Shown here piece by piece: positions 26,972 through 36,542 of a stretch of 64,000 nt of DNA. The notes under the pieces were generated by a model, which was given only the letters and a program-made list of their open reading frames with translations, was not told the origin of the DNA and did not search any database. The DNA is from Novipirellula artificiosorum (GTDB lineage: Bacteria; Planctomycetota; Planctomycetia; Pirellulales; Pirellulaceae), in the NCBI RefSeq assembly GCF_007860135.1, contig NZ_SJPV01000018.1, forward strand, positions 62,001 to 126,000, given 5' to 3'. A program made the translations under genes and the position numbers. The stretch's first letter is position 1. The number at the start of each line of letters is the position of its first letter.

Positions 26972-29113
26972 CTAGCGAAGGGGTGGGCCGGCCGGTTCGC
27001 CGGTTTCTTTCGCGATCGGATACTTGGGACGCCATGTCAAATGGTCCTGCATCAGCCACTGGTGCATGCTTTGGGCGAGGCGGGAGACAACTTCCGGTTG
27101 CTGGTCGGCAATGTTGCGAGATTCACGAATGTCTGTCGTTAGGTTGTACAGTTCCCAGCCGTCCGTCTCGTAAGAATAGATCAGCTTGAACTGAGATTTG
27201 CCGAGTTTTTCAATGGCCGTGACGCACGGTTGGGCGCGACGATCCAAGTAACCGGGGAACAAGTAGAAGATCGGTTTTCGTGGCGAGTCGTCGTTCGGAT
27301 TGACGAGCACATCGGCGAATGAGAATCCATCCAGCGGATGTACTTCCGGCGAGGGATGCCACGTTCCGCCCGCCAATTGGAGGTAGGTTGGGTAGTAATC
27401 GACGCTGTGCACAAGGTGATCCGTAACGGTATTGGCGGGAATCCTGCCAGGCCACCGAGCGATAAGCGGAACTCGAATGCCGCCTTCGGTGAACATGCCC
27501 TTGACTCCGCGGAGCGGCAGATTGTCTTTATGAGTTCCGCCATTATCGGACGTGAACAGGACGAGCGTGTGATCCACAATACTATCACTTTTGTCTCCGT
27601 CGCCATTGGGATCTTCAATCGCGCTGAGGAGACGCCCCAGAATCAAATCCACGCTCTTCACGAAACCGACGAACGGGTCTCCATCGGAACCCTCTTGAAG
27701 GTCGGGGCGTGATCGAACCGGGCCATGGACTGCGTAGGGATGCACTTGCAGGTAGAACGGTTTGTCGGCCGCGGCGAAGCTGGCGACCGTTTCTTCCATA
27801 GCATCGGCCAGCGCGTCGCTAACATGCTTCGGGGTTCCGGCGAGGGATAACGGGAAACCGTAGCGTTCCAGGTATTCGGTGGCGTAGGGCTCGGCAAATC
27901 GGTCGAAATCGCCTCGCCCCAACCCTCGAAATCCCCACAGGTTTTCGTCGGTCTGCGTCGCAAAACAAACTGGCTGATGACCTTGGGTAAAACCGCCAAC
28001 GTTCATGTCGAACCCCACGTTCTCCGGCAGTGTTTCTTCCCCACGATGACCGCCGACATGGTACTTGCCAATGTGCGCGGTGGCGTAGCCGTTTTCTCTC
28101 AGAGCTTCTGCAACCGTGACCGCTTCAGCAGCAACGTCTTCTGATTGTTCTGGACCAACAAAACGAGCCTTTTCCTTCGAAGGACCGCCTCCACCGAAGC
28201 GGTTCAGACTGCCGACGACATACACGTTGTTGTGGATTCGCGTCGGATACTGACCGGACAACATCGCGGCTCGTGTTGGCGCGCAATTCGGTTGTGCGTA
28301 AGCATTCGTGAAGCAAAGCCCCTCGTTTGCCAGTCGCGCGAGGTTCGGCGTGACGTACATGTCGGGATGCGTACCGAACGTGGCCTGCGGAACGCCAATC
28401 TGGTTCCAGCCTAGATCATCCACCATCACGGTGATGATGTTTGGCTTGCGCTCCAGATCATCGAGACTCCTCGGTTCGAACACCGGGTTTTCGTGCCTCA
28501 CCCATTCCAACGGAGCCTCGTTGGGTGGCAATCCTGCTGGTCCTTCGCTGGTAATTCCCTGCGAACCGATCAGCCGAAAAAGTAGATCGCTACCAACGCC
28601 ATTTCCAACAGCCCACTTGCCCTTCGTGCTGTCGTTTCGCCGAATCAGACAACCGCCCTCGTAGCCGCGACTCAGGTGAAATCGAAGATTCGACTTCACC
28701 GTGCTTAGCACCATCGCGTAGTTTCCGGCCGACAAGCTTAACGGAGGATCAAGATGTACAACGACTGAATCCCCTGCTTGCATTCCTTCCGAAAGATCTC
28801 CAGTCTGCGAATGCAACGCCTCGCCAAACGGTTCGCCCCCTTCGAGTGCGAACACCTGGACTGTCAGATCCGCAGCCGATGCCACGTCGGCTGCACCTAG
28901 GATCAGTCCGCCGACGGATCCTGGCTTGGTAAGTTCGAACGTCTGTCCCTTCGAATTCCCCTTTGCGACAAGCGTGTTGCCGTCACGCCCGTGCGAAACC
29001 GACAACGCTTCGGTATCGTCTGCAATCGCGAAATCTGCGGCGTGCGAGTTGCTCGCCACGAGTGCGAATCCAAGAGCAGAGAAAAAAATGGAACGCCAAT
29101 CAGTCTTTCTCAT
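26972..29113 (-). CDS. Secreted sulfatase with N-terminal beta-sandwich domain (CAPTR signature)
   Basis: 713 residues from ATG 29113, GAGG 7 bases upstream. Signal peptide (WRSIFFSALGFALVASNSHA), an extra domain at about 30-185 rich in beta-strands (GQTFELTKPGSVGGLILG, SAGNYAMVLSTVKSN) resembling carbohydrate- or matrix-binding sandwiches, then the sulfatase domain. NIITVMVDDLGWNQIG holds the metal Asp pair, and the formylglycine precursor is Cys277 in CAPTR. HIGKYHVGGHRG has a Lys/His pair and LFTSDNGGTH the second metal site. The extra domain distinguishes it from the other sulfatases here and may tether it to insoluble substrate. Followed on the same strand, upstream side, by another sulfatase. 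Confidence 0.9.
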   Translation of the reverse strand: MRKTDWRSIFFSALGFALVASNSHAADFAIADDTEALSVSHGRDGNTLVAKGNSKGQTFELTKPGSVGGLILGAADVASAADLTVQVFALEGGEPFGEALHSQTGDLSEGMQAGDSVVVHLDPPLSLSAGNYAMVLSTVKSNLRFHLSRGYEGGCLIRRNDSTKGKWAVGNGVGSDLLFRLIGSQGITSEGPAGLPPNEAPLEWVRHENPVFEPRSLDDLERKPNIITVMVDDLGWNQIGVPQATFGTHPDMYVTPNLARLANEGLCFTNAYAQPNCAPTRAAMLSGQYPTRIHNNVYVVGSLNRFGGGGPSKEKARFVGPEQSEDVAAEAVTVAEALRENGYATAHIGKYHVGGHRGEETLPENVGFDMNVGGFTQGHQPVCFATQTDENLWGFRGLGRGDFDRFAEPYATEYLERYGFPLSLAGTPKHVSDALADAMEETVASFAAADKPFYLQVHPYAVHGPVRSRPDLQEGSDGDPFVGFVKSVDLILGRLLSAIEDPNGDGDKSDSIVDHTLVLFTSDNGGTHKDNLPLRGVKGMFTEGGIRVPLIARWPGRIPANTVTDHLVHSVDYYPTYLQLAGGTWHPSPEVHPLDGFSFADVLVNPNDDSPRKPIFYLFPGYLDRRAQPCVTAIEKLGKSQFKLIYSYETDGWELYNLTTDIRESRNIADQQPEVVSRLAQSMHQWLMQDHLTWRPKYPIAKETGEPAGPPLR

Positions 29114-29165
29114 CAAGAGCCTCTACATCAGTTATCGACGAAATTGATTCTATTTAAAGGAGATT

Positions 29166-30539
29166 CTAACGACCGCCAAACGACCAGTCGGGTGACGGTG
29201 TGTAGGCGTCCTTTAGGAAGGTTTCGAGTTGGGTCACGACCTCGGGATGCTGGGCGGCGATGTTGCTTGTCTCGCCGATATCCTTTGTCAAATCATAGAG
29301 CTCCAGGGTCGAGTTCGGATTCTTGCCGACGTTGTTGCGAACGCCCTTCCATTTGCCCCAGCGAACGGCCAGTTTGCCGCCGCGCTCATAGAACGCCCAG
29401 TACAGATACTCGTGCTTCTTCTGACGGTCCATCTGGCCGAGCAGCGCCGGCAGGTAGCTGATTCCGTCGATACCGGCCGGTGCTTCGGTTCCAGCGATTT
29501 CCAGGCAGGTTGGCAAGACGTCCCACATCGCCACTGGCAGATCCGTCTTTGTGCCGGGCTTGATCGTACCGGGCCAGCGGGCGACGAACGGTACGCGGAT
29601 GCCGCCCTCATAAAGATCGCGTTTGTGCCCCTTCAACGGGCCATTGGAGTCGAAGAACTTCGGGTCGTGACCTCCTTCCATGTGCGGACCGTTATCACTA
29701 GTGAACGAGACGATGGTGTTGTTGTCGATGCCGAGTTCCTCGAGCAGCGCCAGCAACTGGCCCACATGCCGGTCCATGCGCGTCACCATGCCCGCAAACG
29801 CTGCGACGGGATTCGTCACATTCGGCCCACTGTATTTGCCAATCTTATCGTCGAACTGCGGCCACTTCTCACGCCAAGGCAAATGGTCGTCTTCTGGAAC
29901 GTGCATGGCCGCATGTGGAATGGTAAAGGGGACATAGGCGAAGAACGGTTTTTCCTTGTTGTCACGCACGAATTGCAACAGCTGGTCAGAGATCAGGTCA
30001 GCCGAATAGGTCTTGCTGTCAAGCGGAACTTTCTTGTCATTGTGCCATAGATGAGTCGGGTAGAACGTGTGCGCCTGGCGCTGACAGTTGTAACCGTAGA
30101 ACGTGTCGAAGTGCTCGACCGGATCGCTGGCGGAGCCGGGTGCGCCGAGGCCCCACTTACCGAACATCCCCGTGGTGTAGCCTGCCTTCTTGATCAGCCT
30201 CGGCAACGTCACAATGTCGATGGGCATCGGCGCCTGGCCTTCGGGCTGTACCTCGCGATTCCCGCGGACAAAGGCGTGACCGGTATGCAGTCCGGACATC
30301 AGCACGCAACGAGTCGGCGCGCAGACGGTGGAGCCAGCGTAGTAGTCTGTGAAGGTGATGCCCTCCGCCGCCAGCCGATCAATGTTCGGTGTCTTGAACT
30401 TCGTCTGGCCGAAGCACGACAGGTCACCATAGCCCAGGTCGTCAGCCATGATATAGATGATGTTCGGGCGATTGTCCGCGGCCCACGATGTGGTTCCCAG
30501 CATCGAGAACATCACTGCGAAAATGAACTTGTGCATCAT
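29166..30539 (-). CDS. Secreted arylsulfatase-type sulfatase (CAPTR signature)
   Basis: 457 residues from the ATG at 30539, chosen because AAAGGAAAG lies directly upstream and it begins a clean signal peptide (HKFIFAVMFSMLGTTSWA); the longer reading has a hydrophilic extension. NIIYIMADDLGYGDLSCFG gives Asp33/Asp34, CAPTR Cys73, MFGKWGLG the conserved Lys, VSFTSDNGPHMEGG the second Asp/Asn, and LYEGGIRVPFVARWPG the core. C-terminal GKWKGVRNN and LYDLTKDIGETSNIA motifs are intact. Close to arylsulfatase A-like planctomycete enzymes. Same strand and 53 bases upstream of the beta-sandwich sulfatase; they may be co-transcribed. Confidence 0.92.
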   Translation of the reverse strand: MMHKFIFAVMFSMLGTTSWAADNRPNIIYIMADDLGYGDLSCFGQTKFKTPNIDRLAAEGITFTDYYAGSTVCAPTRCVLMSGLHTGHAFVRGNREVQPEGQAPMPIDIVTLPRLIKKAGYTTGMFGKWGLGAPGSASDPVEHFDTFYGYNCQRQAHTFYPTHLWHNDKKVPLDSKTYSADLISDQLLQFVRDNKEKPFFAYVPFTIPHAAMHVPEDDHLPWREKWPQFDDKIGKYSGPNVTNPVAAFAGMVTRMDRHVGQLLALLEELGIDNNTIVSFTSDNGPHMEGGHDPKFFDSNGPLKGHKRDLYEGGIRVPFVARWPGTIKPGTKTDLPVAMWDVLPTCLEIAGTEAPAGIDGISYLPALLGQMDRQKKHEYLYWAFYERGGKLAVRWGKWKGVRNNVGKNPNSTLELYDLTKDIGETSNIAAQHPEVVTQLETFLKDAYTPSPDWSFGGR

Positions 30540-30719
30540 AGTCTTTCCTTTGCTCGCCTCATGTTGATTTGTGCGAGGCCCTTTCCCCACACCTGGAAAT
30601 CGATCGGCCATGCGACCACCGGAGAATCGCTAACGAGATTGTAGCGAATAGGCGTCTCGTTCGCCCGCGGCAAAACCTCCCAAAACCTGCAAGAGACACG
30701 AAGCCTTCGATTTCGGGCT

Positions 30720-30974: not shown

Positions 30975-32351
30975 ATGGAAACGCCCATGAAGAAGCGCCG
31001 AGAGTTCATTAAGACCGTTGGTGTTCTGGGCGCTGCGTCGACCTTGCCAAGCACGACGCCGGCAGGCGTAGCGGCAGAGGGCGAAACCGTGGCAAGTTCG
31101 GCGAAGCTTGCCATCGATGGAGGATCACCCGTTCGCAAGACGGGACTTCGCCATCACCCCTACGGTCCACAGTTCTTCGACGACGTGGAAAAGCAAGAGC
31201 TTCTCGACGTGCTCGAATCGAAGTCTCCCTTTCGTTGGCAGGCGGAGGACTCGAAGGTTCTACAGTTTGAGAAGGCCTACGCGGCCCATGTCGGTATGAA
31301 GCACGCGCTCGGGGTCACCTCGGGAACGACGGCACTATATACCGCCATGGCGGCATTGGAGATCGGGCCCGGCGACGAGGTCATCCTGCCCGCGTGGACG
31401 TGGTACGCCGATTACGATGCCATCGTCCTTGCGGGCGCGCTGCCGGTGTTTGCCGAGATCGACGAATCGTTTAACATCGATCCTGCGGATATTGAATCGA
31501 AAATCACGAAGCGGACCAAGGCGATTATCGTGGTCCACCTGCAAGGTACTCCGGCGGACATGAGTCCGATTCTAGAGATCGCGGAAAAGCACAACCTTCG
31601 CATCTTGGAGGATTGCGCCCAATGCTTGGGAGGTCGCTTCAAAGGAAAGTATGTTGGGACGATGGGCAACATCGCGATCAACAGCTTCCAACTCAGCAAG
31701 AGCATCACCGCTGGTGAGGGCGGAGCGGTGCTCACCAACGACTCAACGCTTTTTGAGCGCGCGATCCGATTCCACGACGCCGGGTCGCTACGCGACGTCT
31801 ACGCGGATTCGATGGGAGGCGGCTTGCTGGTGGCTTTCGCTGCCTGCAACTTCCGCATGAGCGAGTTCACCGGCGCGGTCCTCAAGGGCCAATTGCAGAA
31901 GCTGGAAAAGATTTGCGGCGGCCTGCGCCGAAACGCCCGCAAGGTCCGCGAGGGCATCGCCGACCTGCCGGGCATCAAGCTGCGAAAGACGGCGGACCAG
32001 GCTGGAGATCTGGGGGTGACGGTCTTCCTGGATCATGGCACCGAAGCGCGGCGAGATTATTTCCTGAGAGCGTTGCGGGCCGAGGGAATCGCAGCTGCGG
32101 GACCAGGCGGCTCCGTCATCTTGCCGGTCGTCGAGCGGATTGCGAAGAAAACCACGGTCCATCCACTGTGGCCTTCGTTCAACAGCACCGAGGGCAAGGC
32201 GATTCGGTACGGAAGCGAGTGCTGTCCACGGACGATCGACATCTTGGGACGCCATGGCGGGGTGATCATGGATCCCAACTTCAGCGAGGATGACATCAAC
32301 GATATCGTTCGGGCGATTCGCAAAGTCTACATGGCGATGGGTGCAGCATGA
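30975..32351 (+). CDS. Tat-exported DegT/DnrJ/EryC1/StrS-type PLP enzyme
   Basis: 458 residues from Met 30975 (GAGGAGA 7-10 bases upstream); the longer reading frame has no leader character. The leader MKKRREFIKTVGVLGAAS is Tat-like. The DegT fold follows: PLP-phosphate loop GVTSGTTALYTAM, ring-stacking region LPAWTWYADYDAI, Asp213 in ILEDCAQCLGG pairing with the PLP nitrogen, and the Schiff-base Lys242 in SFQLSKSITAGEGG. Family members transaminate keto-sugars, and a few are dehydratases. Export is unexpected for a sugar-nucleotide enzyme and implies a substrate outside the cytoplasm. Its stop overlaps the next gene's start (ATGA), so the two are translationally coupled. Confidence 0.87.
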   Translation: METPMKKRREFIKTVGVLGAASTLPSTTPAGVAAEGETVASSAKLAIDGGSPVRKTGLRHHPYGPQFFDDVEKQELLDVLESKSPFRWQAEDSKVLQFEKAYAAHVGMKHALGVTSGTTALYTAMAALEIGPGDEVILPAWTWYADYDAIVLAGALPVFAEIDESFNIDPADIESKITKRTKAIIVVHLQGTPADMSPILEIAEKHNLRILEDCAQCLGGRFKGKYVGTMGNIAINSFQLSKSITAGEGGAVLTNDSTLFERAIRFHDAGSLRDVYADSMGGGLLVAFAACNFRMSEFTGAVLKGQLQKLEKICGGLRRNARKVREGIADLPGIKLRKTADQAGDLGVTVFLDHGTEARRDYFLRALRAEGIAAAGPGGSVILPVVERIAKKTTVHPLWPSFNSTEGKAIRYGSECCPRTIDILGRHGGVIMDPNFSEDDINDIVRAIRKVYMAMGAA

Positions 32352-33787
32352 CCAATCGAAAGATTTCGCGGCGGCGGTTGCTGGGGCACGGTCTGGGTGC
32401 TGCCACGGCAGGAATCACGCTGCCGGTGTTGACGTCATGCCGCGAGGAGCCAACGAACGTGACCGGCAGCGCGTTCCGTGTTGCCGCCAGAACGCAAAAT
32501 AGCGTCGCTCCGATGGACCAGATCGGCGTTGGGATCATCGGCTGCGGACGTCGCAGCGGGCAACTGGTCATCGGCAAAGGGGGGCAGGGCTCGCTGCCCG
32601 CTCATGCGAGGATCGTGGCCGTGGCCGACTTCAACCGCAAACGCGCCGAGGAGTGGGCCAGGAATTATCGCTGCAAGGCGTTTCACGACTACCGTGAACT
32701 GCTGGACCAAAAAGAGGTGGAGGTCGTTATCTACGCCACGCCAGAACACTGGCACTACTTGCCATGCATTCACGCCTGTCAGGCTGGCAAGGACATGTAC
32801 GGCGAACAGCCTTTGAGCCATACGATCCGCGAGGGTCGGATGATGGTCGAGGCGGTGCGCAAGTACCAACGAGTATTTCAAACCGGCGAACAGCAGCGGT
32901 CTCATCCCGCGACTCGCAAAGCGGTGGAACTCATTCGCAACGGCCGGATCGGTAAGATCCAATCGATCATCGGTTACAATTATCCCAGCGCCTACGAGTG
33001 CGACTTTCCCGCGCAGCCGATTCCCGAATGGCTCGACTGGGACCGATGGTGCGGGCCGAACGAAGTGGTGCCCTATCACACCGATCTTTATCTGTCGCGT
33101 GTCCCCTATGAACGTGAGCCTCCTTACTACACGTACCCTGCAGAAAAATACGCCGTCGGTCCAGGCTGGATGTCGTTCCGGCCCTATTCGGGCGGCGAGC
33201 TACCCAACTGGGGCTGTCACGGTTTGAGCATGGTCCATTGGGCATTGGACATGGACGATAGCGGTCCGGTCGAGATCTGGGTCGATCCCGCTGAGAAGTT
33301 GGAAACGATGGTCTACCACACGCCAGAGAAAGTCGATCGTGGCGATGCCGCCTGCTCCAGGACGAACCTCCATTACCGATATGCCAATGGTGTGGTGCTG
33401 TCGTTGACCAGCAGAGATCCGAGGCTTGGAGGAGGGGCAACGTTTATTGGCGATCAGGGAACGATCACGATCTTCCGTGAGGGCTACGAGTGTGACCCAG
33501 CGGGCCTTGACAAAGAACCGTTGCCGCCCGATGCAATCCGTGTCTACGAAAGCGACAACCACATGGAGAACTTTTTCGATTGCGTCGTCTCTCGCCAGGA
33601 CCCGATCATGAAGATCGAGAGCGGTCACAGTGTCGCTACCTTGTGCCATCTGGGAAACATTGCCCGCCGACTGGGCCGTCGACTGAAGTGGGATCCGGAA
33701 AAGGAAATGTTCCCCGGCGACGACGAGGCGAACCAGTTGACCGACGTTCCGAAACGCATAGGCTATGAACTGCCCAGCGAAGTTTAG
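32348..33787 (+). CDS. Gfo/Idh/MocA-like lipoprotein with EQP in place of EKP
   Basis: 479 residues, start overlapping the DegT stop by 4 bases. The leader has both a twin-arginine motif (SRRRLLGHGLGAATAG) and a lipobox LTSC (Cys31), suggesting a Tat-exported lipoprotein. Rossmann motif GVGIIGCGRRSG about 60-71. The family's catalytic-lysine motif reads Glu153-Gln154-Pro155 (DMYGEQPLSHTI), so the usual Lys is replaced. The rest is well kept (WGCHGLSMVHWALD, ENFFDCVVSRQDP, GHSVATLCHLGNIARRLGR). It may bind NAD and sugar yet lack classical hydride chemistry, or use another residue. Second gene of the four-gene operon. Confidence 0.88.
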   Translation: MTNRKISRRRLLGHGLGAATAGITLPVLTSCREEPTNVTGSAFRVAARTQNSVAPMDQIGVGIIGCGRRSGQLVIGKGGQGSLPAHARIVAVADFNRKRAEEWARNYRCKAFHDYRELLDQKEVEVVIYATPEHWHYLPCIHACQAGKDMYGEQPLSHTIREGRMMVEAVRKYQRVFQTGEQQRSHPATRKAVELIRNGRIGKIQSIIGYNYPSAYECDFPAQPIPEWLDWDRWCGPNEVVPYHTDLYLSRVPYEREPPYYTYPAEKYAVGPGWMSFRPYSGGELPNWGCHGLSMVHWALDMDDSGPVEIWVDPAEKLETMVYHTPEKVDRGDAACSRTNLHYRYANGVVLSLTSRDPRLGGGATFIGDQGTITIFREGYECDPAGLDKEPLPPDAIRVYESDNHMENFFDCVVSRQDPIMKIESGHSVATLCHLGNIARRLGRRLKWDPEKEMFPGDDEANQLTDVPKRIGYELPSEV

Positions 33788-33810
33788 GATTCAACGATGG
33801 GAAGTTGTTT

Positions 33811-35094
33811 ATGAAATGGCGAATGGTTGCTGCGGCCGCATGCATGGTCGTTCTGAATATCGATTCGGCTGAAGAGACGCTGGCTGCAAAGACAGCGACC
33901 AGCGATGTGACATTCGAAAGCAAGGAGTCGGTCGACACGCCGATCGAGTACGTTCCGTTGGATGCGCCGGCTGGCATGTCACAAGCCGTGATTGTTAAAC
34001 AGATTCCGCTGGTCCACACGCGGCAGCTCTTTCCGCTCGACCGCGCCGGAGAGCTGGTCGGTAAAGGCAAAGTCGACGAGCAAATTCAACAGGTTCTCGA
34101 CAACTTGGAGGCTGTATTAAAAGATTCCGCCTCCGGCATGGACCAACTGGTTCGCGTGAATGTATACGCTCTCTCTACGGCAATCCTCACCCGCTTTCAA
34201 CAACAATTGGGTAAGCGGCTCGATCCGTCCGTCCGCCCGGCAATCACCTCGATCCTGACGCCGCTTGCACCCACCGGAGCGTTGGTGGCCATCGATGTGG
34301 TCGCCGGATCCGCCGAGAATGGCAAAACGGTCAACCGGAAGCGCTGCCAGGCGGTGGCCGGCGAGGAGGGTCGCGCCGATGCGGCCGTATTGCCGGCGGG
34401 AAGCATCGCCTACCTTTCCGGCCAGCCGGACGCGGGCGGTTTGACCGAGTCGGCCACCACGAGGTCGATGTCCAAACTGATCGCGACTCTCGAACACTTG
34501 AAGCTCTCGCCCCAGCATGTGGTTCAGGTAAAAGTGTTTTTGAAACCGATGACCTCGGCCGAGGCGGTGCAAGCCGAATTGAGCACGTTCTTCCCCGATC
34601 AGATGACCCCGCCGGTGGTCTTCGTGGAATGGCTCGCTTCGATGCCGGTGGAGATCGAGATGATCGCCCAGTTGCCCTCGCCAAGCAAGTCAGCCCAAAG
34701 CGAGAGACCTTCCGCGTCTTCGGTCGAGTACTTTACTCCGCCTGAGGTTCGCCCCTCGCATACCTTTAGCAAAGTGGCCCTGATGCGGGCCGACAAGCAA
34801 ATCTATCTATCCGGTCTGTACGCGCACCAACCGAGCCGGGGTGAACCTCAGGCAGTCGATCTCTTCGATCGACTGCAGCTGGTTCTCGCTAAGACCGGTA
34901 GCGACATGCGCCATCTGGTCAAGGCTACATACTATGTCAGCGACGACGACGCGGCTCGCTGGATTGACAGGACGCGTCCTCGGCTGTTCGACCCCACTCG
35001 CCCGCCTGCTGCATCGAAGGTAATGATCCATGGAGTTGGCCTACCGCAGCGCACCATGGCGGTGGATATGATCGCAGTCGCCCAAGAGAAGTAA
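33811..35094 (+). CDS. Exported protein with three tandem RidA/YjgF-like domains
   Basis: 427 residues from ATG 33811 (a TTG two codons upstream is open), 23 bases after the MocA-like stop. Signal peptide MKWRMVAAAACMVVLNIDSA. Three RidA-like modules can be traced: about 45-165 (VDEQIQQVLDNLEAVLKDSA, DQLVRVNVYALS), 180-295 (PAGSIAYLSGQPDAGGLTES, VVQVKVFLKP) and 310-427 (ADKQIYLSGLYAHQPSRGEP, HLVKATYYVSDDDAARW). RidA proteins hydrolyse reactive enamine/imine intermediates released by PLP enzymes and are normally single-domain and cytosolic. I see no clear catalytic Arg-Asn arrangement in every module, so some may be degenerate. Co-occurrence with an exported PLP enzyme suggests detoxifying or completing its reaction. 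Confidence 0.85.
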   Translation: MKWRMVAAAACMVVLNIDSAEETLAAKTATSDVTFESKESVDTPIEYVPLDAPAGMSQAVIVKQIPLVHTRQLFPLDRAGELVGKGKVDEQIQQVLDNLEAVLKDSASGMDQLVRVNVYALSTAILTRFQQQLGKRLDPSVRPAITSILTPLAPTGALVAIDVVAGSAENGKTVNRKRCQAVAGEEGRADAAVLPAGSIAYLSGQPDAGGLTESATTRSMSKLIATLEHLKLSPQHVVQVKVFLKPMTSAEAVQAELSTFFPDQMTPPVVFVEWLASMPVEIEMIAQLPSPSKSAQSERPSASSVEYFTPPEVRPSHTFSKVALMRADKQIYLSGLYAHQPSRGEPQAVDLFDRLQLVLAKTGSDMRHLVKATYYVSDDDAARWIDRTRPRLFDPTRPPAASKVMIHGVGLPQRTMAVDMIAVAQEK

Positions 35095-35165
35095 CGTTAT
35101 GTCCTCGATCGCCGACTTGTTCGCCGACTTGTTCTGAGCAACTCAATACCCTGGAAGGAAGAGCG

Positions 35166-36542
35166 ATGCAACGAATCTCTCTATGCATGTTGGTGGTCGC
35201 GATTGGGGGGATGAACGCAAGGATCCAAGCCGATGATCTGTTGATTGGCGTGGCCGCCGTGGATGTCACCCCAACCGAGCCTGCGAGATTGAACGGGTAT
35301 GGCAATCGTCGCCAGCCGGCACAGGGCGTCGCTCAGCGGCTGTGGGTCAAGGCACTGGCAATCCGTGGCAAGGAAGGTCCGCCCGCCATCTTGATCACAG
35401 TGGACAACTTGGGCGTGCCCGCGACAATGACGGAAGAGGTCGCACGAAGGCTGGAGCAGAAGATCAAGCTGCCCAAAAAACGGCTCGTGATCGCCGCTTC
35501 GCACACTCACACTGCACCCTGCTTAACCGGGGTGGCGTCTTGTCTGTTTGGCGAGGCCATTCCGGATGACCACCAAGCAGTCATTGATCGTTACACCAAA
35601 CGTCTGACGGACCAGATCGAACAGGTGGCGATCGATGCCCACGCCAATCTGGAGCCAGGTACACTGGCCTGGGGGCAGGGATCCGTCGGTTTCGCGGCCA
35701 ACCGTCGTGTCTTAAAGGACGGCACGTGGGCTGGATTTGGGGTCAACCCAATGGGTCCCGTCCAGCATGTCTCGCCCGTAATGAAGGCGGCGACAACCGG
35801 CGGCGAAGTGAAGGCGGTTGTGGTCAACTACGCGTGCCATTGCACGACCCTCGGTGGCGATTCGAACCAAGTGTGCGGCGACTGGGCCGGTTATGCACAA
35901 GAGGCAATCGAGCGGGAGTTTCCCGGAGCGGTCGGAATGGTCACGATTGGATGCGGTGCTGATGCGAATCCCGAACCGCGCGGGGAACTGGCGATGGCGC
36001 GCGCTCACGGCGAAACGCTGGCAGCTGAGGTTAAGAGGGTGCTGCAAGCTGAACTGGTTCCATTGGAAACCGTTCCTGTGTGCCAGGCCACCTTGATCGA
36101 TCTGCCCTTCGCACCTCCACCGAGTCGACAAGAATTGTTGGAACGTGCCAGCCAGCTCGGAGCAACAGGCTATCACGCCCGCGTTCAACTCGAGCGGCTG
36201 GATGCCGGAGAGGACTTGCCCGCTTCAATTCCCTATCCAGTCCAGACCTGGCTATTCGGAGACGAATTGGCGATGGTCTTTCTGGCCGGGGAGGTGGTGG
36301 TGGACTACGACCTGCGTCTACGCTGGGAACTTGACGGCAAGAGGCTATGGATCACGGCTTATGCCAACGATGCACCGTGCTACATCGCTTCGCGCCGACT
36401 GCTTGATGAAGGTGGTTACGAGGTCGATCGTTCGATGCAATATTACAACCAGCCGGGCCGACTGGCACCCGAAGCTGAAGAGCGGATCCTTCGCGCCGTG
36501 CATGACCAGTTGCCTGAAGCGTACGACCCACCGGAGAGCTAA
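35166..36542 (+). CDS. Neutral/alkaline ceramidase-like hydrolase, secreted
   Basis: 458 residues, ribosome site GGAAGGAAGAG just upstream. Signal peptide (RISLCMLVVAIGGMNARIQA), then the neutral/alkaline non-lysosomal ceramidase N-domain: LIGVAAVDVTPTEPARLNGY, the zinc-ligand histidines in AASHTHTAPCLTG (about 111-122), NYACHCTTLGGD with His225, and GDWAGYAQEAIE. It is shorter than true ceramidases, as are many planctomycete members, whose substrates are unknown and are presumed to be amide-linked. Last gene of the operon, 71 bases after the RidA gene. With PIG-L and M14 genes elsewhere in the window, amide hydrolysis on exported aminosugar-like substrates is a recurring theme. Confidence 0.85.
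   Translation: MQRISLCMLVVAIGGMNARIQADDLLIGVAAVDVTPTEPARLNGYGNRRQPAQGVAQRLWVKALAIRGKEGPPAILITVDNLGVPATMTEEVARRLEQKIKLPKKRLVIAASHTHTAPCLTGVASCLFGEAIPDDHQAVIDRYTKRLTDQIEQVAIDAHANLEPGTLAWGQGSVGFAANRRVLKDGTWAGFGVNPMGPVQHVSPVMKAATTGGEVKAVVVNYACHCTTLGGDSNQVCGDWAGYAQEAIEREFPGAVGMVTIGCGADANPEPRGELAMARAHGETLAAEVKRVLQAELVPLETVPVCQATLIDLPFAPPPSRQELLERASQLGATGYHARVQLERLDAGEDLPASIPYPVQTWLFGDELAMVFLAGEVVVDYDLRLRWELDGKRLWITAYANDAPCYIASRRLLDEGGYEVDRSMQYYNQPGRLAPEAEERILRAVHDQLPEAYDPPES

Follow-up and report, generated by a model that had tools for sequence, protein, structure and literature searches.

The usual view of DegT aminotransferases places them in the cytosol, in the biosynthesis of nucleotide sugars or antibiotics; action on nucleotide sugars in the cytosol is common in the family but not universal. 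The GenD2/GenS2 and KanD2/KanS2 pairs are likewise cytoplasmic. Glucose-fructose oxidoreductase (GFOR), a relative of the Gfo/Idh/MocA-type protein described below, is Tat-exported. GenD2 and GenS2 replace a hydroxyl group by an amine on gentamicin A2, and act in the reverse, deaminating direction on kanamycin B and tobramycin (PMC4340712). In Pseudomonas aeruginosa, two Tat-exported proteins, PvdN and PA2531, are annotated as aminotransferases (PMC6085387), which indicates that Tat export of a folded PLP enzyme is possible. Among Rid (YjgF) proteins, imine deaminase activity is predicted by the presence of Arg105 (PMC4433059, PMC5619798). A search of a limited set of papers returned no relevant report of an exported DegT protein, nor of a DegT protein linked to a ceramidase.

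Gene content and surroundings of the locus

The window (the whole stretch of 64,000 nucleotides of Novipirellula artificiosorum DNA that was analysed) contains four consecutive genes on the forward strand. They encode a DegT/DnrJ/EryC1/StrS-type PLP aminotransferase (positions 30975-32351), a Gfo/Idh/MocA-family protein (32348-33787), a single-chain triple Rid protein (33811-35094) and a zinc hydrolase of the ceramidase-N-terminal family (35166-36542), the last two exported by motif. The open reading frame coordinates bear out the compact layout described in an earlier note on this DNA, with a 4-base overlap between the DegT and MocA genes, 23 bases between the MocA and Rid genes and 71 bases between the Rid and ceramidase-like genes. 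The good ribosome sites that it reported for the set were recovered in part: GGAG/GGAAGG motifs precede the DegT and ceramidase-like genes, whereas the sites of the MocA and Rid genes are weaker. A promoter and terminator scan yielded signals no more than in shuffled sequence. The GC content of the operon (59.3%) is slightly higher than that of the window (55.1%).

The family named for each of the four products was confirmed by Pfam scores over the curated cut-offs. The DegT protein scores 269.7 bits against PF01041 (cut-off 19.8), the MocA-type protein 65.2 bits against PF01408 and 79.3 bits against PF19051, and the ceramidase-like protein 63.2 bits against PF04734 (cut-off 32.1), while PF01042 matches three stretches of the triple Rid protein. 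Two sulfatases with SGSH-type C-termini lie on the reverse strand at 26972-30611, divergent from the operon. A Sde182/nucleoside-hydrolase-like gene (PF07632; 36601-37179, reverse strand) abuts its 3' end. This short gene matches only positions 1-153 of the 268 in the profile and looks truncated, as other copies in the same genome and in congeners sit in longer frames.

Predicted export leaders, conservation and origin of the gene set

Leaders were judged by motif and conservation. The DegT protein carries the Tat motif KRREFIK, the MocA-type protein the Tat motif SRRRLL followed by an LTSC lipobox, and the Rid and ceramidase-like proteins Sec-type leaders, so that the claim of a Tat, lipoprotein or Sec leader on every product holds at the level of motifs. 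The twin arginines are invariant in DegT (18/18 orthologues) and MocA (25/25), and the lipobox cysteine is present in about half of the MocA orthologues. A Tat-like motif was found in 55 of 58 DegT homologues from loci of the order; the three exceptions include at least one truncated at the edge of its contig and at least one whose 5' call is extended. A PF01041 search retrieved five further DegT proteins from the same genome, none of which, on inspection by eye, begins with a Tat motif at its predicted start. The conserved Tat motif argues against a cytosolic location of the DegT protein.

Each protein was used to search 397 genomes of the same order (Pirellulales). Orthologues of DegT turned up in 29 genomes and those of MocA in 32, while relatives of the triple Rid protein were present in 52. 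All three occur together in 24 of the 397 genomes, with pairwise Fisher values of 8e-32, 3e-21 and 2e-24 that overstate independence, since most of these genomes belong to one family (f17) and are not independent. In the window's own family, the three genes are held by two genomes of this sample (G000, G009); G011, in a smaller sample, also has all three. In 23 of 28 genomes the MocA and Rid genes are immediate neighbours on the same strand. The DegT and MocA genes are adjacent in 12 of 26, many of the remainder being broken by contig ends, and a Tat-signal DegT gene was seen by eye directly upstream of 20 of the 24 MocA genes with readable upstream sequence. At one locus (L014:4922-6514), a 530-residue Tat-signal protein with no Pfam match is encoded directly upstream of the MocA gene.

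The four-gene neighbourhood anticipated in the earlier note is thus conserved in part: the DegT-MocA-Rid order recurs in many relatives, but the ceramidase-like gene does not belong to the core. Within the order, this gene was read near the cluster in the window and at about six other loci, on which count it was rejected as a core member. The four-gene order that ends in it occurs in the window only, other clusters placing it elsewhere or doing without it, and its position in the window is possibly due to chance. A wider association was seen among 80 DegT loci of other phyla that had been picked by DegT similarity alone. Among the matches listed, 15 of these loci hold a ceramidase-family gene, where the density of such genes in the genomes that have them predicts 1.2, and in 11 of the 15 the two genes share a strand with gaps below 250 bases. 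As the DegT proteins concerned are mostly only 33-39% identical to that of the window, the association holds at the level of families. The DegT and the ceramidase-family genes both appear leaderless in some Firmicutes and Spirochaetes.

That four abundant planctomycete families have become neighbours by chance is an extremely remote prospect. This reading draws on how common members of the MocA and ceramidase families are in these genomes, the present one having 92 MocA candidates and three ceramidase-like genes, and it runs counter to the orthologue-level co-occurrence, the conserved gene order and the DegT-ceramidase enrichment; for the three-gene core, co-occurrence and order rule it out. 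Two congeners were found without the DegT and triple-Rid genes, and in the tree the window DegT falls among the sequences of another family. Together with the higher GC content, these observations make horizontal acquisition of the operon likely, though not proven.

Residues and folds of the four proteins

The catalytic residues of the DegT protein are retained in an alignment of 59 homologues (K242 in 59/59, R294 in 59/59, D213 in 58/58 and Q216 in 58/59). With the PLP lysine K242 kept throughout and the other PLP residues looking intact, its predicted nature as a PLP-dependent enzyme, as proposed in the earlier note, is upheld. Its nearest solved relatives include KdnA and 2-deoxy-scyllo-inosose aminotransferases. 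Many clusters contain two or three DegT genes of about 35% mutual identity, often in tandem, whereas the window operon has a clade A DegT only. In a tree of 147 DegT proteins, the extra copies fall in four separate clades (A to D) with relatives in Bacteroidota, Verrucomicrobiota, Kiritimatiellota and Acidobacteriota. Tandem duplication as their source was rejected because the tree places the copies in distant clades, which implies that they were brought together rather than duplicated in place. Each of four clusters (L077, L078, L081, L083) has three DegT genes with Tat signals, drawn from different deep clades.

The MocA-type protein is, judged by its residues, not a normal dehydrogenase. 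The catalytic E-K-P motif reads E-Q-P (Q154) in all 28 orthologues of at least 60% identity, and the lysine is kept in all 24 other MocA-family proteins of these loci in which the column is filled, including the closest paralogues at 50-54% identity. In the G-x-H-x-x-D motif the aspartate is replaced by serine in the orthologues; the window protein has N287 and S294 in place of aspartate and keeps His291. An NAD-type Rossmann motif of the GxGxxG type is present, with G62, G65 and G67 invariant. The structural model is closest to glucoside-3-dehydrogenase 8tdf and GFOR, with KanD2 and GenD2 among the closest folds. Its confidence is moderate (pLDDT 74.8, and below 50 for residues 268-288), and the model was therefore left out of the judgement of active-site geometry.

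The equivalent of Arg105 of E. coli TdcF is missing from all three domains of the triple Rid protein, which have I145, V270 and A401 instead, and alignments of about 30 orthologues never show an arginine there. An imine deaminase was accordingly rejected on these residues. The protein also scores under the cut-off of the NCBIfam model TIGR00004 (75 bits against 106.25). The Rid fold itself is supported by the three PF01042 stretches and by YjgF matches of the model (pLDDT 90.7). The best Foldseek matches by E-value are a chorismatase and cyclic amide hydrolases, which have the same three-fold arrangement in one chain, followed by single YjgF proteins. Whole-chain TM-scores are low (0.24), which limits the claim to domain-level homology. 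The third domain has a conserved R-P-P-A-A-S-K stretch in which P-A-A-S is invariant and the following lysine almost always kept. In some relatives the triple-Rid part is joined to BNR (sialidase-like) or esterase-like domains (L016:272-2659, L017:6060-8459, L020:7604-10849), and these fusions point to glycans. At two loci (L098:4780-7607, L086:3631-6081), a tandem pair of triple-Rid genes adjoins a MocA gene.

In the ceramidase-like protein, H113, H225, E376 and Y406 align with H97, H204, E411 and Y448, the zinc ligands of neutral ceramidase 2zws, and are invariant in 12 sequences. The protein has 458 residues and scores 29.6 bits against the NF041649 equivalog, for which the cut-off is 1200 bits.

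A candidate exported sugar-amine module and its relation to known systems

The reading that we prefer, with belief and doubt in about equal measure, is that these genes may encode a PLP-based module that transfers amines on free sugars or cyclitols in the extracytoplasmic space, as a relocated GenS2/GenD2-like variant. The DegT protein would swap amine and ketone on a sugar or cyclitol in free form, with no nucleotide attached; an aminosugar or cyclitol is the substrate that we infer. The MocA-type protein would bind sugar and possibly NAD without acting as a classical dehydrogenase, and the triple Rid protein, as a single-chain pseudo-trimer, would bind or hydrolyse a product and perform no imine deamination. 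Where present, the ceramidase-like zinc enzyme would remove an N-acyl group and thereby expose the amine. What would donate or accept the amine outside the cytoplasm is hard to see, and this counts against the module.

The deaminating, catabolic direction appears somewhat more likely than the biosynthetic one, since the neighbours of such genes include sulfatases, GH95 proteins, amidohydrolases and xylose-isomerase-like proteins, a context that favours breakdown. These neighbours, typical of breakdown, tell against a biosynthetic module that would aminate a keto sugar of an exported polymer or glycolipid (a 3-amino sugar, for example), by analogy to NtdA/NtdC, KanS2/KanD2 and GenS2/GenD2 acting on free sugars in the cytoplasm. 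Although the DegT-Gfo pairing resembles that of GenD2/GenS2 (PMC4340712) and several DegT paralogues per cluster could serve several positions, the catalytic lysine of the MocA-type protein is lost and no glycosyltransferases were noticed beside the clusters of the order; we regard the biosynthetic version as unlikely. NAD-dependent glycoside cleavage, in which the MocA-type protein would be an exported, redox-neutral, glycosidase-like enzyme whose product is processed by the DegT and Rid proteins, seems rather improbable. In its favour, glucoside-3-dehydrogenases are the nearest solved relatives of the MocA-type protein, whose NAD motif is intact, and GH109 glycosidases also lack the EKP lysine; against it, both the aspartate and the lysine are replaced here.

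The earlier note had proposed a self-contained extracytoplasmic pathway with amide release by the ceramidase-like enzyme, PLP-dependent conversion by DegT and clearance of a reactive imine by RidA. The conserved, exported-by-motif set with its intact-looking PLP enzyme and the DegT-ceramidase-family link across phyla sustain the general outline, while the imine-clearing role fails on the absence of the Arg105 equivalent from all three domains in every orthologue examined (PMC4433059, PMC5619798). The TIGR00004 score (75 against a cut-off of 106) and the place of the ceramidase-like gene outside the conserved core weigh in the same direction, and that pathway as a whole is very unlikely, even with its four families present and exported by motif.

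Returning to the amine-transfer module, its fullest form would place an entire PLP-dependent pathway for sugar amines beyond the cytoplasm, with as many as three different exported DegT proteins, a MocA-type protein with new chemistry or a binding role and a triple Rid protein whose new activity is directed at glycan products; this we put forward tentatively, as something we are inclined to doubt. If true, PLP sugar chemistry would take place in the periplasm-like space of these bacteria, and family names used as annotation (RidA deaminase, dehydrogenase, ceramidase) would mislead here. The EQP-type MocA protein, the arginine-less triple Rid protein and the DegT-ceramidase-family gene pair of many phyla are the resulting targets.

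Known systems share parts of this organization. PvdN, which acts on pyoverdine, and PA2531 lack MocA and Rid partners, and to our knowledge neither has been reported as a DegT-family protein. The glucoside-3-dehydrogenase AL3 (8tdf) and GFOR are the closest solved relatives of the window MocA; in the alignment, AL3 retains the EKP lysine where the window protein has EQP. Neutral ceramidase 2zws has its zinc ligands conserved in the window protein but comprises 646 residues against 458, and the equivalog score is far below the cut-off. Three Rid domains per chain likewise occur in 3x-RidA proteins such as EF_0115 (PMC4433059), from which the window protein differs in being exported by motif, in missing Arg105 throughout, in its link to DegT and MocA and in having relatives with BNR or esterase fusions. 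GenD2/GenS2 and KanD2/KanS2 involve no Rid or ceramidase partner. GenD2 and KanD2 are active dehydrogenases, whereas the window MocA is without the catalytic lysine and aspartate, so that their oxidise-then-aminate pairing is not simply transferable and the step must differ. The likeness lies in the combination of a Gfo/Idh/MocA-type dehydrogenase with a PLP aminotransferase that acts on a free glycoside.
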